A stretch of 64,000 bases of DNA from Lysobacter capsici. Its GTDB lineage: Bacteria; Pseudomonadota; Gammaproteobacteria; Xanthomonadales; Xanthomonadaceae. The stretch is taken from contig NZ_CP094357.1 of NCBI RefSeq assembly GCF_014779555.2, positions 4,092,001 through 4,156,000 on the forward strand. Direction: 5' to 3'. Position 1 is the stretch's first letter, and every line of letters begins with the position of its first letter. The notes below the pieces were generated by a model. The model was given only the letters and a program-made list of their open reading frames with translations, had not been told where the DNA came from and ran no database searches. Positions 1,600 to 58,087 of this stretch are shown piece after piece. The position numbers and the translations under genes were made by a program.

Positions 1600-2054
1600 C
1601 AGGTGGCCGCGCCCGAGGCCTGTGTATCGATCGGCACTTCGTCCGGCGGGCCCTTGAGTTCGACCAGATTGCCTTCCGGGTCGAACAGATATTGCGAGGG
1701 GCCTTCGCCCTCGGCGCCGTAGCGCGAACCGAAATCGCCGATGCGCACGCCGTGCGCGTCCAGATGGGCCACGATCGCCGCGCGGTCGAAGGGCTCGGCG
1801 CGCAGGCACAGGTGATCCATGTTGCGGCCCTCCTCGCCCGGCGCGGCGCCGCCCATGCGGCCGATCTTGCCGTCCACGTCGACCAGATCGATCAGCGAAG
1901 CGCCGGCGCGCAACTGCACCAGCCCGATCGGGTCCTGGCGGCGCTCGATCGTGCAGCCGAGCACGTCGCAATAGAAGGCGATCATCGCCGCGGTGTCGCG
2001 CACGCGCAGCACCACGTGATCGAGTTGCATCAGCTGAAACGGTGGCGCGCTCAT
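1599..2054 (-). CDS. VOC-fold (glyoxalase/bleomycin-resistance type) protein
   Basis: A 151-aa protein that looks like a single vicinal-oxygen-chelate domain. It starts MQLDHVVLRVRD after a short N-terminus, has AFYCDVLGCTIE in the first beta-alpha-beta-beta unit, and ends with YLFDPEGNLVELKGP in the second unit. The histidine of LDHVV and the glutamate of LVELKG are at the usual metal-ligand positions, and a second His is in NMDHLCLRA. Close relatives are annotated as glyoxalase-like or virulence proteins of unknown substrate. It is the first gene of a two-gene unit with the MFS exporter, with a four-base stop/start overlap. The length is normal for a single VOC protein. Confidence 0.85.
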   Translation of the reverse strand: MSAPPFQLMQLDHVVLRVRDTAAMIAFYCDVLGCTIERRQDPIGLVQLRAGASLIDLVDVDGKIGRMGGAAPGEEGRNMDHLCLRAEPFDRAAIVAHLDAHGVRIGDFGSRYGAEGEGPSQYLFDPEGNLVELKGPPDEVPIDTQASGAAT

Positions 2055-2310
2055 GTCGGCGTCGGGGGCTTGGGGGAGACTTCACAGCATACAACCGCGC
2101 GGGCGCGCGATCGGGTGGGAAGTTGTTTTGATTTGTCGATTGAGGGTGGTGGGTGCGGTGGCGGTGCGAGGGGCTTGAGCTTCTTTGGCTCTGACACCTT
2201 GTTGATCGCTCCTGCCGCTGCTCCGTCGCGCCGTCTTGCCCGTCGCTCATCGGGATTTTTTCGGCATCGTCGCCTTGCTGTCGTTACTCATACCGCGGCC
2301 ATCTCTCCTA

Positions 2311-2502
2311 TCGTCATTCCCGCGAAGGCGGGCTCTGCTTTACTTCGGCGCAGCCGAACATCCAGTGCCTTTCGTGCGAGAACACCTGAAGTCACTGGAT
2401 TCCCGCGTTCGCGGGAATGACGATCGTGAAAGATGACGCTGAAGTCTCTGGATGTTCGGCTGCGCCGAAGTAAAGCGCAGCCCGCCTTCGCGGGAATGAC
2501 GA
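2311..2502. repeat. Inverted-repeat element with 55-bp arms (CATTCCCGCG type)
   Basis: The arms at 2311-2365 and 2448-2502 are reverse complements over 55 bases with only a few mismatches. Both carry the CATTCCCGCGAAGGCGGG motif and a TTCGGCGCAGCCGAA palindrome. A third, shorter copy of the motif in the right-hand orientation lies at about 2399-2424. No gene is seen between the VOC start (2054) and the riboswitch, so this fills most of the gap. It resembles the small non-autonomous repeats (MITE or REPIN-like) scattered through proteobacterial intergenic regions. Confidence 0.75.
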
Positions 2503-2657
2503 ACTGAAAGATTCGCACCTGTCGAAGGACTCGTGCCACGGCTTCCGTGTCCCGCGCCCGTCATGGCGGCATTCCCGGCCCGAACCCACCCCAACCTCAC
2601 CCGACCGGCCCAACCCTGAACCCGCCCCAGCCCCTGCCCCCAGACCCCATCCCCGGC

Positions 2658-2663
2658 TATAAT
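2658..2663 (+). promoter_or_regulatory. Likely -10 box of the gcvP promoter
   Basis: A perfect TATAAT stands about 20 bases before the first aptamer of the glycine riboswitch, which would place the transcription start near 2670. No good -35 hexamer is visible 17 bases upstream, so the -10 box carries the call. Confidence 0.55.
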
Positions 2664-2681
2664 CCCCGGCTTGAAACACCC

Positions 2682-2940
2682 GGTGGGAGAAGCGGCCCGG
2701 CCCTCAAGCCTGGACCGCTGCCGAAGGCGCAACGCCCGTAATCGCTCAGGCCCCATACCGCCGTGTGTACAAACTCTGGAGAGACCGACCACCCGCGATC
2801 CAGCGGGCGGAACCGGCGCCGAAGGGGCACGAAGCCAGCGCGGAACGGAGCGGCCCCCAACGGCCATCCCTCCCCAGCCGTCACACCGCAGCCTGACCGC
2901 GGCGGCGCTTCCAAACTCTCAGGCAAAAGGACAGAGGGGC
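2682..2940 (+). promoter_or_regulatory. Tandem glycine riboswitch upstream of gcvP
   Basis: Two glycine-aptamer signatures follow each other. The first has GGGAGA at 2684, GCCGAAGGCGCAACGC at about 2719 and CGCTCAGGCCCCAT at about 2743. The second has TCTGGAGAGACC at about 2775, CGCCGAAGGGGCA at about 2817 and the near-invariant AAACTCTCAGGCAAAAGGAC at 2913-2932. The second copy ends about 45 bases before the gcvP start. Glycine riboswitches of this tandem form normally turn on the glycine cleavage system when glycine is abundant. The position directly in front of gcvP fits that role. The expression platform was not resolved by eye. Confidence 0.93.
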
Positions 2941-2985
2941 GCCTCGCGTGCGGCACCGCACGCTGCCTACGGACGCCCCCTGCCC

Positions 2986-5847
<2,862 letters not shown>

Positions 5848-44548: not shown

Positions 44549-45072
44549 CAAATCCCCCGCGCCGCTCGGCTCACCTGCATCGCACTAACGACGGGCGCCC
44601 GCCCCCTTTTTCAAAGTGGGCGATCATTTACGCGAGGATCCATCGACATGGATCGCCGCCCCTCGAAATGGATCGCCGCTCCCCGAAGAATTCCCCTCTT
44701 TGAAAAAGGGGGACCAGGGGGGGATTTGCTTTTCCCGCCAGTTCGCCGCGCCATACGAGCGAAAGCAAATCCCCCGCGCCGCTCGGCTCACCTGCATCGC
44801 ACTAACGACAGGCGCCCGCCCCCTTTTTCAAAGTGGGCGATCATTTACGCGAGGATCCATCGACATGGATCGCCGCTCCCCGAAATGGATCGCCGCTCCC
44901 CGAAGTATTCCCCCCTTTGAAAAAGGGGGGCCAGGGGGGATTTGCTTTTCCCGCCAGTTCGCCGCGCCACACGAGTGAGAGCAAATCCCCCGCGCCGCCA
45001 GGCTCACTTGTATCGCAATAACGACGGACGCCCGCCCCCCTTTTTCAAAGTGGGCGATCATTTACGCGAGGA
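44549..45072. repeat. Tandem repeat of 216-bp unit, two full copies and one partial
   Basis: The unit begins GCAAATCCCCCGCGCCG at 44549, 44765 and 44981, exactly 216 bases apart. The third copy stops after about 92 bases. Each unit holds inverted pieces: an early CCCCCTTTTTCAAAG and a later CTTTGAAAAAGGGGG, then GGGGGATTTGC. ATGGATCGCCGC also recurs within the unit. The copies differ at only a few positions. Open frames reading through the unit (for example on the plus strand at 44616 and 44833) are repeat-derived and are not called genes. Confidence 0.9.
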
Positions 45073-45118: not shown

Positions 45119-46198
45119 TCACGCCGTCGAACTGGACCGCATCCCCGCCGCCGCGGACGTCACTCCTCGTGCAACACGCACCGATGCCGTCTCAACCGGC
45201 GCAGCAGATGACCCAGCACCCGCGCCCACACCCGCACCCGCATCGAGATACACCTGCACCGCCTCCACATCGTTGCTCTCGATCGCATTGCGCAACAACG
45301 TCTGCCCATCCTTCAAACTCGCATCCGGGTCCAGCCCGGCCGCGAACAGCGCCTGCAGGCACGCGGCCGAACACGGCAGCTTGAACTGACTCAAGCGCCA
45401 GGCGTTGAACAACAGGTTCGGCCGGCCGACCACCAGCGCGGCCAGCAGACGCCCAAGAATCAACGCCGGCATCTGCTTGTCCGCCACGGTGGCGTGGTTG
45501 CGATACGACTCCACGCAATCGAATTCGATCGCCGCGCGCGCAGGCCGCACCTCGCCCGCCTCGCGTTCGCGGCGGATGCGTCGCAGCGCCCAATGCTGGA
45601 ACTCGGGCAACAGCACCAGCGGGTCGAACGCCCAGCGCAGGTCGCGCGCTTCCAGGTAATCGGGCAGGAACGCGAAATCCTCATCGGCTTCGCGCGGCGA
45701 TTTCAGCACCGCCTGCCATGCGCGCAGACGGCCGCGCGCGGCGCGGTAGTGGCTGTCGGGAAACCAGTCGGCTTGCTCGTGATCGCTTACAGGCTGATCG
45801 CTCAGCGCGCGATACGCATCCAGACGCCGGCCGGCCTGCTCCAGGCTCGCCGCATCGGGCCGGTCTTCCAGCGCCAGCAGCGCGGCGGCGACATTGCTCA
45901 CCCGCAGCAGCGCCGGTCGGATCGCGCCGATCGCGGCGGGCGGCTGGGCGAGCAGATCGAAGGCACTGGCCAAAGCGCGGCCCAACGTCCACGGATAACG
46001 GCTCCGGTCGCCGTCGGGCGCGCTCCATTGGATGGCGTCGCGGATATGGCTGGCAATATAGGCGTAGAGCACGACCGGATCGCGCGCAAAACGCTTGAGC
46101 CCGTCGTCGGCGACGCGGCGGCGGTTGCGGTTGCTGGAATCGGGAATCAGCAGTTCGGCCCGCAATGCGGGCAGATCGCCGGAGGCACGGTCCGTCAT
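45119..46198 (-). CDS. Protein with C-terminal ankyrin-type repeat, beside an XVIPCD effector; possible immunity protein
   Basis: A 359-aa protein without signal peptide. The first 280 residues are helical and unlike any family I know (LKRFARDPVVLYAYIASHIRDAIQW, FLPDYLEARDLRWAFDPLVL). Near the end, AACLQALFAAGLDPDASLKDGQTLLRNAIE followed by VEAVQVYLDAGAGVG reads as one to two ankyrin repeats. The last 30 residues are low-complexity (Ala/Ser/Val). It lies 200 bases downstream of the lipase effector on the same strand, and another ankyrin protein lies upstream of it. Ankyrin proteins beside toxin genes are often immunity proteins, but this is inference here. Confidence 0.6.
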   Translation of the reverse strand: MTDRASGDLPALRAELLIPDSSNRNRRRVADDGLKRFARDPVVLYAYIASHIRDAIQWSAPDGDRSRYPWTLGRALASAFDLLAQPPAAIGAIRPALLRVSNVAAALLALEDRPDAASLEQAGRRLDAYRALSDQPVSDHEQADWFPDSHYRAARGRLRAWQAVLKSPREADEDFAFLPDYLEARDLRWAFDPLVLLPEFQHWALRRIRREREAGEVRPARAAIEFDCVESYRNHATVADKQMPALILGRLLAALVVGRPNLLFNAWRLSQFKLPCSAACLQALFAAGLDPDASLKDGQTLLRNAIESNDVEAVQVYLDAGAGVGAGAGSSAAPVETASVRVARGVTSAAAGMRSSSTA

Positions 46199-46397: not shown

Positions 46398-47678
46398 TCA
46401 ACTCATCACCGCGCGCCGCGTTTCCTGCTGCTGTTGCGTTTCCGCCGGCGCGGGCGGGTTGTGCGCGGCGACCTGCGGCGGCGGCGACAACGCGCGCGCT
46501 TCATCGACGAAGGCGCGGCGGCTGCCCGGGTCGGCCAGGCCGCCCTGGACGATGAAGAATCCACCGCCGTCGCGACCGGGCACCACGTGATCGATCCGAT
46601 CCATGCCGTTGGCGCGCGCATCCAATGCCGCATGCGTGGCGGCGTTGCGATAGCCCTGCTCGCCGCGGAAATCCATCGCCTTGGCATCCATGCCGTGCAG
46701 GCCGCGCAGCGCCTGGTCGTACAGGCCATGGTTCGGATGCGAGGGATGCGACAACTGCGCCGTTGCCTGCGCTTCGCCGCGCGATCCCGCCGACGCGGCG
46801 ATGCCGACCTCGGCGTTGGCATTGCCGCGCACGCTGCGATCGCCGTCGGCGCGCGCCGGATCGCTCGCGCTGATGCCGGTCGCGGTGCGCGCGGTTTCAG
46901 GCGAAGCCATCTCCTGCGCCTTGATGACCGCGTCGATGTAGTGGATGTCGATGCCGTGCTTGATGCCGTTGCCCGGGATCATCCGCTTCCAGAACGACTG
47001 CGGGTCCGGATCGGGCAACTCGATCTTGTGGCCGACCGCGTCGGGCATCGCCCACTTCAGCGGGATGCTGTGCTCCTGCAGCTCGGTCAGGATTTCGTTC
47101 TTGACCGAGTAGCGGCGGATCTGTCCATTGTCCTTGACCTCGTCCTTGGCCGCGTCGGCATCGATGCCGAGCCGCTCCAGGGTCTTGTCGTGGACGCCGG
47201 AGGAATTGAAGGTCACCGCCGGAATGCCGCTGGCGATCGAGGCCGCGCCGCCCAGGCCGCCGCCGAGCGAATGGCCGGTGATCACCACCTCATCGCCGAA
47301 CGCGACCTTGGCCTCGCGCGCCAGCGCGATGGCCTGGTTGTACTGCGCGTCCTCGAAGCCCAGGCCCTGGCGGAAATTGGTCAGCCAGTCCTTGCCTTCG
47401 TCGGTGCCCGAATAGGCCAGCACGTAATGGCCCTTGTCGTCGCCGTAGACGCGGGCGAGGAAACCCGAATCCTTGTTTTCCAGCGTCGACGGATCGATGC
47501 CCGCGCCGCGCAACTGTTCGGCGCTGAGCGGCTTGAAGCCGTCGATGCCGGGGCCTTGATCGTAGAGGTCGTCCATGATGCGGGCGAGCGTCTTGTCGAT
47601 CGGTTTGGCGTCCAGGCCGCGGACCTGGTCCGCGAACGAAGGCTCGCCACTGGCGGGTGGGATGGACTGCTGGCTCAT
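46398..47678 (-). CDS. Type IV secretion effector: lipase-fold toxin with C-terminal XVIPCD domain
   Basis: A 426-aa protein. Residues about 30-270 are an alpha/beta-hydrolase of the DUF2974/lipase class-3 type: YVLAYSGTDEGKDWLTNFRQG, nucleophile S137 in VVITGHSLGGGLGGAA, and FNSSGVHDKTL. From about residue 310 the sequence matches the XVIPCD pattern: HPSHPNHGLYDQALRGLHGM, AATHAALDARANGMDRIDHV, GFFIVQGGLADPGSRRAFVD, and a Gln-rich tail (QQQQE). XVIPCD tails deliver antibacterial toxins through the Xanthomonadales VirB/D4 system. It probably attacks the phospholipids of rival bacteria. It is flanked by two ankyrin-type genes on the same strand. Confidence 0.88.
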   Translation of the reverse strand: MSQQSIPPASGEPSFADQVRGLDAKPIDKTLARIMDDLYDQGPGIDGFKPLSAEQLRGAGIDPSTLENKDSGFLARVYGDDKGHYVLAYSGTDEGKDWLTNFRQGLGFEDAQYNQAIALAREAKVAFGDEVVITGHSLGGGLGGAASIASGIPAVTFNSSGVHDKTLERLGIDADAAKDEVKDNGQIRRYSVKNEILTELQEHSIPLKWAMPDAVGHKIELPDPDPQSFWKRMIPGNGIKHGIDIHYIDAVIKAQEMASPETARTATGISASDPARADGDRSVRGNANAEVGIAASAGSRGEAQATAQLSHPSHPNHGLYDQALRGLHGMDAKAMDFRGEQGYRNAATHAALDARANGMDRIDHVVPGRDGGGFFIVQGGLADPGSRRAFVDEARALSPPPQVAAHNPPAPAETQQQQETRRAVMS

Positions 47679-47754: not shown

Positions 47755-48411
47755 TCAACCTTCCACCGCGATACCGTGTTCGCCCAGCCAGGCGATCAGC
47801 GCATCGCGATCCTGCCGCGTCGTCGCGTTCAACACACTGACCGGGGTCATGAACAGATAACGCTGGAAGGTGACGTTCTGGGCGTTGCGCGCGCGCGCGT
47901 CGGCGCCGGCCTGCAACAGCGTCAGCGCGTGATTGGGTTGATTGATCTTGCCGGCCACGTGCAACGCGGTGTTGCCCATGCGGTCGGCGTGATTGACCTG
48001 CGCGCCCGCGGCCAGCAAGCGCTTGAACTGCGCCGGCCGCTCGCCCATCAGCGCCGCGCTCAACGGCGTCGCGCCGGTATGCGCATGCACGGTGTCCGGA
48101 TCGGCGCCGTGCGCGAGCAATGCGTCCAGATACGCCGGATCGTTGGCCATCGCCGCCAGATGCACGACGGTGCTGCCGTCGATGCCCGGCTGCGCCGGAT
48201 CGGCGCCCAGATCGAGCAAGGCGTTCAAGCCGTCGAGACTTTTGTTGAGCACCGCCCATTCGAGCAAGGTGACGTTCTTGTCGCCGTGGCTGCGCAAATC
48301 CACGCCTTCGGCCAGACGCCGGATATCGGCCACTTCGCCGTCGGCGACGGCTTCGGCCAGATCGGCCACCGCCGGATCGGCGAATACTTCATGAATATCT
48401 ACCGCTGCCAT
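47755..48411 (-). CDS. Ankyrin-repeat protein upstream of the lipase effector; possible immunity protein
   Basis: A 218-aa cytoplasmic protein made of about five ankyrin repeats: LEWAVLNKSLDGLNALLDLGADP, STVVHLAAMANDPAYLDALLAHGADP, TPLSAALMGERPAQFKRLLAAGAQVN and NTALHVAGKINQPNHALTLLQAGADA, then a short cap. The start at 48409-48411 has AGGAGG eight bases before it, which rules out the longer open frame. It lies 76 bases upstream of the XVIPCD lipase gene in the same direction and is probably co-transcribed. It could shield the producing cell or hold the toxin before secretion. Confidence 0.82.
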   Translation of the reverse strand: MAAVDIHEVFADPAVADLAEAVADGEVADIRRLAEGVDLRSHGDKNVTLLEWAVLNKSLDGLNALLDLGADPAQPGIDGSTVVHLAAMANDPAYLDALLAHGADPDTVHAHTGATPLSAALMGERPAQFKRLLAAGAQVNHADRMGNTALHVAGKINQPNHALTLLQAGADARARNAQNVTFQRYLFMTPVSVLNATTRQDRDALIAWLGEHGIAVEG

Positions 48412-49099
48412 TCTGGACTCCTCCTGAGCACCTGCTGGACTACCCCTACGCCCACCGACAGGCGGGACGTGTAGCGACTTCCCCGCCAATGGGCGGGAGA
48501 TCGAGCGACGCGCACGGTGACTTTCCCCTGCCGTAGTGACGAGCACATACGGTTACGTACCGTGGCTTTGGGAGCCTAACAAGAACCCGCCGGCACATGC
48601 CGTGCTGACAAGCTGACGCCGGTCACAGTTCAGCTGCGCCACCGGTCAAATTGGACGGACGGCAAGATGAATGCGCGACCGCTTCGCGGGTTTCGCCGCG
48701 CCGAGACGCGACCGTCGCCCTCGCATCAGCATCGCCGTCGAACATGGCAGGCGTGCGGCGATGCGGCGCGCGATCGCATGCGCCGCGATCGGATTTCGCC
48801 GCGCGCCATGTCTCCATGGTTGCCAGTTGCCAGTCGCCAGCGACACCGGCAGCGCATGCGCTTCGCAGCTCGCGAAGATGACTGACGTCATGCGTAAACC
48901 GTCACGGTGACGTTCTGTGATGCCGCGCGCGGATGCATGGTGTCAACGTGATAAAAACGCGCGGTCGATCGTTTTGCGCATACGGACGGATGCGCGAAAC
49001 GCTGCAAGCCTCACCGTCCAGCACATCGCATCACCACGCCACGCGAACCCGCCCGCGTCGTCGCGAACGGTTCGTACCACGCACTGCTAGGAGAGTTTC
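48412..49099. other. Gap between the effector operon and the lanthipeptide locus
   Basis: No gene is supported here. Overlapping short open frames on both strands (48646-48910) lack good ribosome-binding sites and look like GC-rich noise. The right half should hold the lanA promoter and includes a palindromic patch (TGACGTCA at about 48883-48890, then the inverted repeat at 48900-48912). Confidence 0.45.
48900..48912. promoter_or_regulatory. Inverted repeat upstream of the lanthipeptide precursor gene
   Basis: CGTCACGGTGACG is a 6-1-6 inverted repeat, close to an upstream TGACGTCA palindrome, about 190 bases before the precursor start. It could be an operator for the lanthipeptide genes. No regulator gene is adjacent. 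Confidence 0.35.
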
Positions 49100-49258
49100 A
49101 TGCCCATGAATGCGGAAATCTCACAGGACGTCCTCAACCGTCTGCTGTCCGAAAGCATCGGCTCGCCCGATCTGAGCGACGACAAGCTGGTGGACCTGTC
49201 CAGCAACCTGCTCAGCCTGTCCTGCGTCTACACCAGCTGCCACAACTGCCGCGAGTGA
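49100..49258 (+). CDS. Class II lanthipeptide precursor peptide (LanA-like)
   Basis: A 52-aa peptide starting at an ATG six bases after TAGGAGA. The first 35-40 residues form an acidic leader (AEISQDVLNRLLSESIGSPD and DLSDDKLVDLSSNLL), as in precursors modified by LanM enzymes. The C-terminal core (about SLSCVYTSCHNCRE) has three cysteines and several Ser/Thr, the residues LanM dehydrates and cyclises into (methyl)lanthionine rings. The next gene is a LanM synthetase in the same reading frame, separated only by this peptide's TGA. There is no Gly-Gly at the leader/core border, so the cleavage site is not obvious. I believe this is a real gene because of the ribosome-binding site, composition and neighbour. 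Confidence 0.85.
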   Translation: MPMNAEISQDVLNRLLSESIGSPDLSDDKLVDLSSNLLSLSCVYTSCHNCRE

Positions 49259-49285
49259 ACCCGGCCTTCCTGTGATCGATGCGGG

Positions 49286-52252
49286 CTGCACCGCGAGGCG
49301 CAGCCCGCTTGGCATCCGGCCTACGGCGATACCCCGATCCTTCCGCACGAACACGACTCCATCGACCCGGCCCTGCGGCCGCTGCTGCGCTGGGCCGAAC
49401 CGATCGTCGCGCCGGCGCGCGAGCGCTGCCTGGCGCAGTGGCGCGGCCATGCGCTGCGCGATCGGCATGCCTTCGACTTCGACCGTCTGCGCGCGAGCAT
49501 CGAGCATGCGTTCGCGGCGCCTGCGTTGGCCTGGAGCCAACGCAGCCTGCTGCTGGAACTGGCGATCGCGCGCCATCGCGGCAGCTTGCTCGGCGATACG
49601 CCGCAACAACGTCACGAGTATTTTCTCGACTGGATCGACAGCGCCGCGGGCCGGCGCGAACTGGACGACCGCTATCGCCTGCTGAGCGCCGATATCGCCG
49701 CGCAGGCCTTGCGCACCGAAACCTTCCTGAGCCGATTCGCGCAGCGACTGACTGCGGATCGCGCGCAACTCGCGCCGCTGTTCGCGCACAACGACGCGCC
49801 CGGCCGCCTGCTCGACTTCGACTGCGGCCTGGGCGATCGTCACGATCACGGCGGCAGCGTGATCGATCTGCGTTTCGAACACGGGCGCGCCCTGTACAAG
49901 CCGCGTTCGCTGGCGATGGACGGCGCCTATGCGGCATTCCTCGCGCATTTGGCCGAACACGGCATCGAACCCGTGCAAGCCGCGGCCACGACCCTGGATC
50001 GCGGCGACCATGGCTACGCCGCCTGGATCGAACACCGGCCGCTCGCCGACGAGCAGGCCGCGCAACGCTACTACCAACGCTACGGCGGCCTGACCGCGAT
50101 CGCATATGCATTGGCTTGCACCGACCTGCATCTGGAAAACCTGATCGCCTGCGGCGAATACCCGATCGTGATCGATCTGGAAACGGTGCTGCAGCCGTGG
50201 ATGACGCGCGCCGCCGCATCGCAGCCGGCCACCCGATCCATCGGCCCTTACGCACCGTCGGTGGTGTTTTCCGGCCTGCTGCCGGGCGGCCGCAACGAAG
50301 CCGGCGCGCAGGACCTCAGCGGCCTGGCCTGGGCCGAATACCGCTTCGACACGCGATGCGCGGTCGATGCCGGCAGCGATCAACTGCGTCTGGCGCCGAC
50401 CGAGTCGGTCGCGCCGCCGGGACGCAATCTGCCGCACTACGCCGACGGCCGCCGGATCGCGCCGCATCTGCACAGCGAGGCCATCGTCGACGGCTTCGAC
50501 CGAACCTATCGCGGGCTGCTGCGGCTCAAACCCAAGCTCGATTTCGACGACGGACTGCTGGCGCCGTTCGCCAGCCTGCGAACGCGTGCCTTGCTGCGCT
50601 CGACCCACATCTATGCGCGCCTGCTCGATGCCTTGTCGCATCCGCAGCATCTGCAATCGCAGCAGCAACGCGACGCGGTGCTGGCGCGGCTCGAGGTCGG
50701 ACAGCGCGAATGGCCGTTCCTCGCCCGCACCCAGGCCGCCGAGCGCGACGCGCTGCTGCGCGGCGACGTGCCGCGCTTCACCATCGCCGTCGGCGGCACC
50801 GATGTTGAGGACGGCGACGGCCGTCGCATCGATGCGGTGTTCGCGCGCAGCGGTCGCGACGAAGCGCGGCGTCGGCTGCGGATCCTGTCGGAGCGCGATC
50901 GCCAACGGCAGACCTATGCCTTGGCGCAATCGCTGGAAAGCCTGCGCCCGTGGTCGGCGATCGAACCCGAGCGCGACTGCGCACAGACCCGCGCGGCAAG
51001 CGATTCCGACGACGACGCACACCGCGGGCTTGCGCTCGATACCGCCATCGCCCTCGGCGACGAACTATTGCGCTTGTCGTTCAACGGCCGCGGCGAACGC
51101 GCCTGGTTCCAACCCGAATACCGCAACCGTCCCGAGCCCTCGCTTGCGCCGATGGGCCTGACCTTGTACGAAGGCCTGCCCGGCGTGATGCTGATGTTCG
51201 CCGAACTGGGCGCGCAAAGCGGCCTGCCCCGCTTCACCCGCGCCGCCGAAACCACGCTGGCCGCGTGCCGGCGTCAGTTGCGCGAAGACCCGCGCGCGCT
51301 TGCGTCCGTCGGCCCGTGGTCGGGATGCAGCGGCTGGATGTATGCGCTGCTGGTATTGGCGCGACGCTGGCAGCGCGCAGACCTGCTGGACGAAGCCGCG
51401 GCGGTCGTGCCATGGATCGCCGAACGCATCGCCACGGACCGCGATCTGGACCTGATCAGCGGCGCCGCCGGCGCGCTGCTGGTGTTGCTGGAACTGCAAC
51501 GTCTGCGCCTGGACGCGCGGACACTCGCCGTTATCGAGGCCTGCGCGGCGCACTTGATCGAACACGCGCAGCACGGCGACGACGGCGCCTGGTGGACCTG
51601 CCCCGCCTCGCCGGATCGCGGCCTGAGCGGTTTCGCCCACGGCAATGCCGGCATCGGCGCCGCATTGGCGGGCCACGCGGCGCTCAGCGGCGATAAGACC
51701 GCGCTGCAGCTCGCACGCGACGCGCTGCGTTACGAACGCAATGCTTACCGACAGCGCGGGCAGCGTTGGTACGACCTGTTCGAACCTGCGGCCGAATCGG
51801 ACGACAAGCCCGACAGCGCGCGCGACATCCATTCGTGGTGTCACGGCGCGCCCGGCGTCGGTTTCGCGAGACTGTTGCTGCCCGAATCGCTGCGCGATGC
51901 GGCCTGGCACGAGGACGTTCGCCAATGCATCGCCAGTACGCGCCAGTCGGGACTCAGCGGCGGTCACTGCCTGTGTCACGGCCAATGGGGCAATCTCGAT
52001 CTGCTGATCCAGCACGCCGCGCTGCGCCGCGATCGCGACGCCCTCGCCGAGTGCCGCGCAATCGGCGCTTCCTTGATCGAACAGATTCACCCGCACTGGC
52101 ATTGCGGCGGCCGCTCGCCACGCGAACGGCCGCTGGGATTGATGGTCGGCCTGGCCGGCGTCGCCTACGGTTGCCTGCGGCTCGCCGATCCGGCGAATGC
52201 GGCCTGCGTGCTGATGCTTTCGACCGGGCCGCAGCTCATCGCGACGCAGTGA
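49286..52252 (+). CDS. lanM: Class II lanthipeptide synthetase LanM (dehydratase plus LanC-like cyclase)
   Basis: A bifunctional enzyme, about 988 aa if it starts at the CTG at 49286. The first ordinary start codon in frame is a TTG at 49526 (908 aa). The extra 80 residues read as real protein, so 49286 is given with an uncertain start. Counting from 49526: dehydratase kinase-like core YKPR (124-127), TDLHLEN (199-205) and IDLET (216-220); then a LanC-type cyclase with GFAHGNAGIGAAL, zinc ligands C772 in SWCHGAPG, and C817 and H818 in GGHCLCHG. Together these dehydrate Ser/Thr and form thioether rings in the precursor encoded just upstream. No export or protease gene is nearby. Confidence 0.92.
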   Translation: MHREAQPAWHPAYGDTPILPHEHDSIDPALRPLLRWAEPIVAPARERCLAQWRGHALRDRHAFDFDRLRASIEHAFAAPALAWSQRSLLLELAIARHRGSLLGDTPQQRHEYFLDWIDSAAGRRELDDRYRLLSADIAAQALRTETFLSRFAQRLTADRAQLAPLFAHNDAPGRLLDFDCGLGDRHDHGGSVIDLRFEHGRALYKPRSLAMDGAYAAFLAHLAEHGIEPVQAAATTLDRGDHGYAAWIEHRPLADEQAAQRYYQRYGGLTAIAYALACTDLHLENLIACGEYPIVIDLETVLQPWMTRAAASQPATRSIGPYAPSVVFSGLLPGGRNEAGAQDLSGLAWAEYRFDTRCAVDAGSDQLRLAPTESVAPPGRNLPHYADGRRIAPHLHSEAIVDGFDRTYRGLLRLKPKLDFDDGLLAPFASLRTRALLRSTHIYARLLDALSHPQHLQSQQQRDAVLARLEVGQREWPFLARTQAAERDALLRGDVPRFTIAVGGTDVEDGDGRRIDAVFARSGRDEARRRLRILSERDRQRQTYALAQSLESLRPWSAIEPERDCAQTRAASDSDDDAHRGLALDTAIALGDELLRLSFNGRGERAWFQPEYRNRPEPSLAPMGLTLYEGLPGVMLMFAELGAQSGLPRFTRAAETTLAACRRQLREDPRALASVGPWSGCSGWMYALLVLARRWQRADLLDEAAAVVPWIAERIATDRDLDLISGAAGALLVLLELQRLRLDARTLAVIEACAAHLIEHAQHGDDGAWWTCPASPDRGLSGFAHGNAGIGAALAGHAALSGDKTALQLARDALRYERNAYRQRGQRWYDLFEPAAESDDKPDSARDIHSWCHGAPGVGFARLLLPESLRDAAWHEDVRQCIASTRQSGLSGGHCLCHGQWGNLDLLIQHAALRRDRDALAECRAIGASLIEQIHPHWHCGGRSPRERPLGLMVGLAGVAYGCLRLADPANAACVLMLSTGPQLIATQ

Positions 52253-54597: not shown

Positions 54598-55475
54598 CCT
54601 GTAGGAGCGGCGCAAGCCGCGACCGCGACATCTCGGCGACGTCGAGGTTTGCACCGTGGTTGCGTTCTCGCGGTCGCGGCTCGCGCCGCTCCTACAGGTA
54701 GGCCATGGGGCTTCGGCTTGAGCTTGAAGTCTCAGTGCACCACTGTGGCGCGTGCCCGCGTCTGCATCGACCTTGCGGGCAGCTGATCAACAACGAGGTA
54801 TTTTTCTTCGGCCACCTTGCCTGCGTAGTAATTGCATTTTCGCGGTCGCGGCTCACGCCGCTCCTACAGGTAGGCCATGCACCTTCTGCTTGAGCCTGAA
54901 GTCCCAGTGCACCACTAGCGCTGCGAGGCTTGTAACTTGCGTTAGCAAAAGCACACCCGAAGGGCGACGCGCATGGATGCGCGTCGCGCGCCACCGGGAC
55001 ATGGATGTCCCGTGTGGCGCGTGCCCGCGTCTGCATCGATCGCGCGGGCTCTTGATTCACAAAAAAGCATTTTTCTTTGGTTACCTTTCTTTTGTTGCTT
55101 TAGACAAAAGAAAGTGACCCGCCGCTTTAGCGGCGGAACGCTTTTGATCCTGCTTGCAGATTTTAAAGGCTTCAAAGCTTTGAAGCTCTAGAGCTTTTGG
55201 AGCCAAAGGCAAGATCAACAGCTTTCGTCCGCAAGCGGCCGAGTTACTTTCTTTTGTCAAAAGCGACAAAAGAAAGGTAACCAAAGAAAAACGCTTTTCT
55301 TTGAATCAAAGGCCCGCGCGTGCGGAGCATTCGCGGGCATGCGCCACACGGGACATCCTGTCCCGGTGGCGCACGGCGCACATCCATGTGCGCCGCCCTT
55401 CGGGTGTGCTGTTGTTCTCGCGAGTTCCAAGCGTCGCAGCGCTGGATGAACTGCGCGGCTTCAGGCTCAAGCAAC
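54598..55475. repeat. Second composite repeat locus: three REP palindromes and two back-to-back 260-bp elements
   Basis: REP-like palindromes lie at about 54598-54629, 54669-54700 (opposite orientation) and 54840-54870. The 260-bp element seen at 16.8-17.4 kb occurs here in reverse at about 54880-55150 and forward at about 55212-55475, so the two point away from each other. They share AAAGAAAGGTAACCAAAGAA, the GCGCCACACGGGACATCC palindrome and GGCGCACATCCATGTGCGCC. No coding gene is supported between the surface-protein start (54211) and the GH75-like stop (55523). Short open frames within the elements are repeat-derived. Confidence 0.85.
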
Positions 55476-56603: not shown

Positions 56604-57056
56604 ATGCCCATGCTCGGATCGATTCCAGCAAGATCGATACTTCTGCTGTCGCTGCTGGCGCTCAGCGCCTGCGCCGCGGTCGACGCCCGATCGTCGAGCG
56701 CCGATCCGAGCGAAGACACCGCGGCAACCACGACCCGCTACGAATTCGAATTCGATTGCCCGCCTTCGGGCAAGTTCCGCATCGCCGGCACGACCCAGTG
56801 GGTGGACGATCACGGCTATCGCTCGCAAGTCAGCGAGCTGCGCATCGGCGCCAAACCGCTCGCCAAGCGCTGGATCGATGAGATCAACCGCCGCATTCCC
56901 GCCGAGGCGTATCAGGAGCGTCCCTGGCTGACCTGCAGCGGCGGCGGCGCGTCGATCGAGCTGCGTTTCGTCGATCGCAACGACGGCAGTATCGCGCGCT
57001 CGCCGCGCCTGAAATTCATCGTGCATCGCGAAGGAACCCTAGAGTTTTTGGATTGA
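56604..57056 (+). CDS. Lipoprotein, likely immunity protein for the next XVIPCD effector
   Basis: A 150-aa protein with a lipoprotein signal (ARSILLLSLLALSACAAVDA, lipobox LSAC, acylated Cys near residue 23). The mature domain starts TRYEFEFDCPPSGKFRIAG and has a second Cys in WLTCSGGGASIEL, so one disulfide is possible. It is 29 bases ahead of the XVIPCD effector gene. In Xanthomonadales, type IV-secreted toxins that act in the periplasm are typically encoded beside a lipoprotein inhibitor of this size, so an immunity role is likely. Confidence 0.72.
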   Translation: MPMLGSIPARSILLLSLLALSACAAVDARSSSADPSEDTAATTTRYEFEFDCPPSGKFRIAGTTQWVDDHGYRSQVSELRIGAKPLAKRWIDEINRRIPAEAYQERPWLTCSGGGASIELRFVDRNDGSIARSPRLKFIVHREGTLEFLD

Positions 57057-57085
57057 TTCCAGCCATCGAACGCAAGGAGCCCGCC

Positions 57086-58087
57086 ATGGCGAAGATAGGA
57101 CAGAACAACACCAACCCGGACCTGGCCCAGACCGAGGAGCTCGCCAAGGATCTGGCCAGGCAGATCGAGGCCAAGAAGGATCACGAAAAGGTCGAATACG
57201 TCGCCGTGGTGTACAAGGACGGCGACGAATTGAAGACCACGCAATTGTTCTCGAAGGGCAGCTACAACTCGGCGCCGCTGAGCGACGCCATCGCGGCGGC
57301 CGGCGGCAAGGACAAGGTGCTCGCCGTGGTGCACAACCATACGCAGAAAAATGTCGACATGCAGTTCGACAAATCCACCGCGCAGGCGATGGAACGGCTG
57401 CCGTCGTCGCGGCCCCACGACAAGGACAACCCCGCCGACTGGGATGTGGCGCGCAAGCAGTTCGGCGATCGCACGGACGTGGCCTATTACCTGCTCGATC
57501 CCAAGGACAAACTGCGCCGCTACGACTACGCCGACCGCGAGCATTGGATCGACGAAGTGAAACCGGCGACCGGACGTGAGGCGGCAAGCGGCAGCAAGAC
57601 ATTCCATCCTGCTCCGGAGATGGATATGCAGCCCTCGCTGAAGCCGGCGCAGCCGTCGACGACGCCCGCATCGACGCCGGCCCTGGGCGACGCCACGGTT
57701 TCGCTGTCCGACCCTCGCGCCACGCGCTTGCAGTCCCAGGCGCACGAAGCGGTCGCTCAAATGGAGACCGGCCTGGGCGTGGCCTGGACCGGCAACAGCG
57801 AACGCGTGGCCGCCTGCGTCGGGCGCCTGGCCTATCAACAAGGCTTCGACGGCATCGTCGCGGTCGCGCCCAATCGCGCCACCGCCGATCACGCCGCCGG
57901 CGAGCTGATCTGCGTGCAGGGGCGATCGTCGAGTCCGGACCCTTACGCCAATCGCGCCATCGTCGCGACCGCCGAAGCCATGGCGACGCCGGTCGAGGAA
58001 TCGCAACGCCAGACTCTGGCGCTGCAGAACGAAAACGCGCGCCAGAGCCCGGCCGAGCCATCGCAGCAGGCTTCGATGTCGCGCTGA
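57086..58087 (+). CDS. Type IV secretion effector with JAB-like N-terminal domain and C-terminal XVIPCD
   Basis: A 333-aa protein. The ATG at 57086 follows AAGGAG. The N-terminal 160 residues contain VEYVAVVYKDGDELKTTQLF, LAVVHNHTQKN with H83 and H85, and PSSRPHDKDNPADWDVA. This spacing recalls a JAB/MPN or DUF4329-type HxH...S..D metal site. After a Pro/Thr/Ser-rich linker (about 165-215) comes the XVIPCD: LSDPRATRLQSQAHEAVAQM, RVAACVGRLAYQQGFDGI, AAGELICVQGR, AEAMATPVEES and a Gln-rich end. This domain directs export by the bacteria-killing type IV system. The lipoprotein gene upstream is the probable immunity partner. The toxic activity is uncertain. Confidence 0.82.
   Translation: MAKIGQNNTNPDLAQTEELAKDLARQIEAKKDHEKVEYVAVVYKDGDELKTTQLFSKGSYNSAPLSDAIAAAGGKDKVLAVVHNHTQKNVDMQFDKSTAQAMERLPSSRPHDKDNPADWDVARKQFGDRTDVAYYLLDPKDKLRRYDYADREHWIDEVKPATGREAASGSKTFHPAPEMDMQPSLKPAQPSTTPASTPALGDATVSLSDPRATRLQSQAHEAVAQMETGLGVAWTGNSERVAACVGRLAYQQGFDGIVAVAPNRATADHAAGELICVQGRSSSPDPYANRAIVATAEAMATPVEESQRQTLALQNENARQSPAEPSQQASMSR

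Follow-up and report, generated by a model that had tools for sequence, protein, structure and literature searches.

The locus at positions 49100 to 52252 of the window, i.e., the whole 64,000-nucleotide stretch of the Lysobacter capsici genome that was analyzed here, is best explained as a two-gene class II lanthipeptide operon, and we put the probability of this reading at about 86%. A gene for a 52-residue precursor is followed by a gene for a LanM synthetase. The locus is conserved among relatives and is probably functional, and its precursor family lies outside DUF6229.

A precursor gene linked to a complete LanM

The precursor open reading frame, identified by reading the sequence, runs from 49100 to 49258 on the forward strand and has an AGGAG ribosome-binding site (49089-49093, +) six bases ahead of its ATG. 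The predicted leader, residues 1-36 (49100-49207, +), is acidic, with seven Asp/Glu against two Lys/Arg, and carries a conserved IGxxDLxDD(K/R) motif. The predicted core, residues 37-52 (LLSLSCVYTSCHNCRE; 49208-49258 with the stop codon, +), has three Cys and four Ser/Thr. Thus, the acidic leader, the three-Cys C-terminus with Ser/Thr and the strong ribosome-binding site described in the initial annotation are all seen. The boundary after residue 36 is a putative one, placed by homology to the double glycine of a more distant relative, G067. When the precursor was compared against Pfam, NCBIfam and DUF6229, no match to a known lanthipeptide family was found.

The LanM frame is open from 49259 to 52252 (+) without a stop, giving 997 residues, and lanM itself is suggested below to span 49361-52252 (+). 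The frame matches the TIGR03897 LanM profile with 676.7 bits (E 4e-203) against a cut-off of 304. Both hallmarks of class II are present in the one protein: a DUF4135 dehydratase domain (Pfam E 6e-89; frame residues 146-509, 49694-50785, +) and a LanC cyclase domain (LANC_like, E 8e-57; frame residues 631-982, 51149-52204, +). We took the functional residues from those given for CylM in PMC4550811. In the alignment, the zinc ligands Cys875, Cys911 and His912 of CylM correspond to Cys861 (51839-51841, +), Cys906 and His907 (51974-51979, +), and nine of the nine dehydratase residues are found, as Asp193, His195, Lys214, Asp289, His291, Asn294, Asp306, Arg443 and Thr449 (numbers refer to the 997-residue frame, with aligned residues counted by hand). 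All twelve are invariant across 22 aligned LanMs. LicM2 (PDB code: 6ST5) and CylM (PDB code: 5DZT) match with E values of 3e-87 and 3e-26; they share the LanM family and the functional residues, but the similarity is distant and the precursors are different. The precursor had been described as followed at once by a full dehydratase/cyclase with its zinc ligands. The enzyme is indeed complete, with three of three ligands, but "at once" hides a start-codon problem, which is taken up in the next section.

The two genes occur together. The precursor and LanM searches covered the same 20 genomes of the genus, with every candidate scored. The precursor profile gave matches of E <= 1.5e-22 in eight of them, and these are the same eight that encode a LanM of at least 44% identity. 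None of the 12 genomes without such a LanM has the precursor; five of the 12 have weak matches only (E 0.05 to 0.8). Across 395 genomes of the family, taking the best two LanM candidates per genome, a LanM of at least 44% identity is found at 11 places in 10 genomes, and three more genomes have best LanM matches of 32-38%. The precursor profile, applied to the family with the 17 best candidates per genome, recovers the same 11 places. This recovery follows from how the profile was made, namely from precursors of this kind, so that the information lies in what the search did not turn up: the 395 genomes yielded no further convincing precursor, the one extra match (E 0.006) being at chance level and inside a 674-codon frame. 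The initial annotation had named, as outcomes against it, a lanM kept without the 52-residue frame or a precursor lying elsewhere. What we found, among the top candidates, is a precursor directly upstream of the LanM orthologue in 11 of 11 places, with neither gene present without the other. Since the precursor frame recurs beside an orthologous LanM, it is not a chance open reading frame. Thus, the linkage in genus and family supports the proposal that this LanM would act on the adjacent precursor. Named carriers are Lysobacter sp. Root690 (91%), ISL-50, Root916 and yr284, Luteimonas panaciterrae and L. aquatica. Fulvimonas sp. R45 and Rhodanobacteraceae bacterium ZG21-1 were added by a survey of GTDB species genomes, in which 80 of 105 relatives were retained, so that the two-gene unit is distributed over Lysobacter, Luteimonas, Fulvimonas and this Rhodanobacteraceae strain.

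By mechanical gene calls, the flanking genes vary between locus groups and no conserved accessory gene was seen. In the window, two XVIPCD (PF20410) proteins flank the operon, XVIPCD being a domain of Xanthomonadales type IV secretion effectors. One of them has a weak lipase match and is followed by ankyrin-repeat genes, whose products are possibly immunity proteins (XVIPCD and ankyrin genes at 46401-47678, 47758-48546 and 45122-46198, all on the reverse strand, and at 57053-58084, +). Separately, the same peptide strings appear on both strands in overlapping mechanical open reading frames at about 44550-45060 and about 54700-55450, an indication of intergenic repeat elements. About 105 nucleotides upstream of the precursor there is a dyad, GCGCATACGGACGGATGCGC (48976-48995, +). 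Its pattern, which was itself built from the loci that it matches, is found once per genome in 5 closely related genomes out of the 20 of the genus, at this locus, and the reversed control gave 0. The dyad is possibly a regulator site or an RNA hairpin, a CsrA/RsmA-type hairpin being one idea. A search of Rfam returned one chance-level miRNA match and nothing else.

The start of lanM and its expression

The first ATG, GTG or TTG of the LanM frame in the window is the TTG at 49526, which is codon 90 and lies 55 codons past the start that we propose. Likewise, our start table, which covered the region from the end of the precursor gene to the conserved PLLRWA motif, has no such codon for this genome (G000) or for two others (G003 and G010), so that 3 of the 13 loci have a lanM without a canonical start. 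Since the three are close relatives, the loss represents one event. It is expected to lower LanM expression.

Three pairwise comparisons among these genomes separate the frame into distinct parts. Codons 1-34 have 6-9 nonsynonymous and 1-2 synonymous changes, codons 35-90 have 1-3 and 8-14, respectively, and over codons 91-997 dN is about 0.05 against a dS of about 0.3. In the AlphaFold model (mean pLDDT 85.9), residues 1-33 have a pLDDT below 50, though this may partly reflect few aligned sequences, and the first helix begins at residue 37. From the codon test, the predicted structure and the start-codon table together, we infer that lanM starts near codon 35, at ATC 49361. Two TTG codons were considered as starts and rejected. 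Initiation at TTG 49526 would cost the protein two of its predicted helices, a portion of another and the well-constrained codons 35-89, and the codon is CTG in G003. The TTG at codon 42 of G003, which is CTG in the other two genomes, is unlikely as a start, being inside the conserved PLLRW motif. Codons 1-26 have no synonymous change in any pair, while dS for the gene is about 0.3; thus the DNA itself seems to be constrained here, perhaps via the intergenic hairpin described below.

Alternatively, the synthetase could be produced by recoding, either through readthrough of the precursor TGA into LanM or through a frameshift from ATG 49279. This is unlikely but has points in its favor, since precursor and LanM share one frame, split by a single TGA, in all three start-less loci, where the GTG/ATG stretch at 49272-49281 is also unchanged. 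However, three loci that stem from one event would share a frame by chance in one case out of three, the two frames differ in 8 of the 10 other loci, and the linker codons 1-34 are without constraint at the protein level. The two other loci that do share a frame have an ATG for lanM. If readthrough were true, there would be a natural precursor-LanM fusion. There are engineered leader-LanM fusions with constitutive activity, and we know of no natural one. A stricter proposal is that this Lysobacter group makes its synthetase only by a non-standard event, either AUC initiation or, more boldly, UGA readthrough joining the precursor in cis to its own synthetase, which we regard as improbable. Were UGA readthrough to operate, the recoding rate would set the enzyme dose and the resulting LanM molecules would carry a built-in leader. 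Decay of lanM, leaving little or no enzyme and an unmodified precursor, would also account for the lack of an ATG, GTG or TTG ahead of PLLRWA in the three genomes. Yet the frame has neither a stop nor a frameshift, the catalytic residues are intact, and the excess of synonymous over nonsynonymous changes in codons 35-90 and 91-997 is that of a constrained gene, so decay is very improbable. We therefore favor a functional lanM that begins near codon 35, and the lack of a start codon common to three genomes offers a clean system for testing non-canonical initiation.

The two genes also differ in their translation signals and are separated by a hairpin. GGAG precedes the precursor at 12 of the 13 loci, whereas only one of the ten loci with a canonical lanM start has it within 16 bases before that start. 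In the window, the hairpin (49281-49308, +) has a 9-bp stem and a 10-nucleotide loop and is not followed by a T-run. All 13 loci have a hairpin between precursor and lanM; of 200 shuffled versions per locus, no more than 7 matched it in strength, and in the window 2 did. Its sequence varies between locus groups, and in three loci a T-run follows it. A classic terminator is unsupported for the window, because the hairpin lacks a T-run and went unreported in the terminator scan; the scan for promoters and terminators returned nothing for this operon. We suggest that the hairpin and the weak lanM start may keep LanM scarce relative to its substrate.

A precursor family distinct from DUF6229

The precursors have in common the leader motif IGxxDLxDDKLVD, with small changes, and their cores vary, with one to four Cys each. 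The Lysobacter group has SLSCVYTSCHNC, the Luteimonas pair has NTCWRTCIFC and NTCYRSCLHC, Root916 has VRCTCMIGADYFG and a further group has the single-Cys PRWTCIA. Among five Lysobacter species (six pairs compared), residues 37-50 have no amino-acid change, while up to nine nonsynonymous changes separate the leaders. After residue 36, each Luteimonas core holds exactly three Ser/Thr and three Cys, where the window core holds four and three, and the register is nearly the same. These counts point to three thioethers and to three or four dehydrations. Thus, the product probably has three thioether rings, and the earlier estimate of up to three fits the predicted cores. A second precursor, with a different core, occurs in both Fulvimonas and ZG21-1, so that a single LanM may have several substrates. 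These second precursors belong to the same leader family, lie near 7529 in L061 and near 6522 in L062, and end in CFTTTTVHTSGTC and CPTTTVNRTFDC.

The genome has five LanC-like genes, and three of the others adjoin DUF6229 precursors. Membership of the present precursor in DUF6229, the kind that is usual in Lysobacter, was rejected: it has no PF19740 match in Pfam at E <= 1, and the three PF19740 matches of the genome are at other loci. In a tree of 32 proteins, the 13 LanMs of this precursor family form one group (support 100/100) and nine DUF6229-associated LanMs form a separate group (100/100). The LanM of G067 (38%), which has a long branch, is placed as sister of the group of 13 (100/100). 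G067 has a double-glycine leader and a LanT, its LanM is related, and the leaders can be aligned by eye (VELDDQALASIAGG versus PDLSDDKLVDLSSN). Two side observations were made in these comparisons. In L102, a contig titled Comamonas sp. KCTC 72670, the LanM pairs with a Myxococcus LanM in the tree, which could reflect a wrong label or a gene transfer. In L044, a large open reading frame at about 1756-3864 directly follows a DUF6229-associated LanM of this genome and looks by eye like an M13-type peptidase.

Rhodanocin is described in PMC9576775 as a DUF6229 product. The locus resembles the rhodanocin/DUF6229 systems of Lysobacter and Rhodanobacteraceae, as presented in PMC9576775 and PMC11451712, in being class II, in having the precursor beside LanM and in its genus; it differs in leader motif, core and LanM tree group. 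PMC11451712, a 2024 preprint, gives 72 class II clusters for Lysobacter with 27 unique precursors, 21 of them DUF6229. Since these figures imply six precursors that are not DUF6229, the one reported here may already be listed. The other precursors of the genome raise a last alternative, that this LanM modifies one of them and the 52-residue peptide is not its substrate: the genome does encode at least three more class II precursors, all of the DUF6229 family, but these adjoin LanMs of their own, whereas the 52-residue precursor co-occurs with this LanM and is conserved in leader and core, which makes the idea hardly credible.

Leader removal, export and the proposed pathway

PMC7268733 describes the leader motif that is usual in class II and links double-glycine leaders to C39 proteases. 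None of the 14 distinct precursors has a double glycine at the homologous leader position; one, that of ZG21-1, has it at residues 21-22 instead, which precede the DL motif. Nine loci of this precursor family, with about 8 kb to either side of each, were scanned for motifs, and none has a C39-like or ABC-like open reading frame, while the same scan was positive at 9 of 15 other LanM loci. In G067 the leader ends in AGG and a C39-ABC transporter lies 2.7 kb downstream of LanM, so it has both features, unlike the family described here, which has neither. The three DUF6229 loci of this genome likewise gave no C39- or ABC-like open reading frame in a motif scan of the available stretch, and the missing exporter is therefore not special to this precursor family within the genus. 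In the eight genus genomes with the locus, PF03412 matches lie either on a different contig or no closer than about 147 kb. Two C39 domains are encoded elsewhere in the genome, and these could act in trans. With no exporter or C39 protease nearby and no double glycine at the usual site, leader removal, if any, would need a host protease.

Lys or Arg occupies the position of residue 29 in all 14 distinct precursors. According to the review PMC10885120, the unlinked protease SflL cuts a class IV leader after PDLLK. As in the class III and IV systems with an AplP-like protease treated there, the present loci have no cluster protease, and PDL or DL precedes Lys/Arg in most leaders. However, the synthetase class is another one and the likeness is a short motif, so an AplP-like or Lys-specific protease is a lead that this motif offers.

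We propose the following pathway. The precursor would be well translated from its strong ribosome-binding site, while the hairpin between the genes and a weak or non-canonical start codon would limit the synthetase, giving many substrates per enzyme. LanM would bind the leader, phosphorylate Ser/Thr of the core and eliminate phosphate. The zinc-bearing LanC domain would then add Cys42, Cys47 and Cys50 onto dehydro residues, probably forming the three thioether rings with residues drawn from Ser39, Ser41, Thr45 and Ser46. If the leader is removed at all, a host protease would do so, with the conserved Lys/Arg at position 29 as one candidate site. The missing double glycine and the missing nearby exporter raise the question of how, or whether, these peptides exit the cell. 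A fixed leader in front of cores with one to four Cys provides a natural test of LanM tolerance. LanM expression was raised in L. capsici and L. gummosus in the work of PMC10380237 and PMC10745450 (2023), which state that no lanthipeptide had been isolated from Lysobacter as of then. Thus, to a genus with no isolated lanthipeptide by these accounts, the locus adds a precursor family outside DUF6229.
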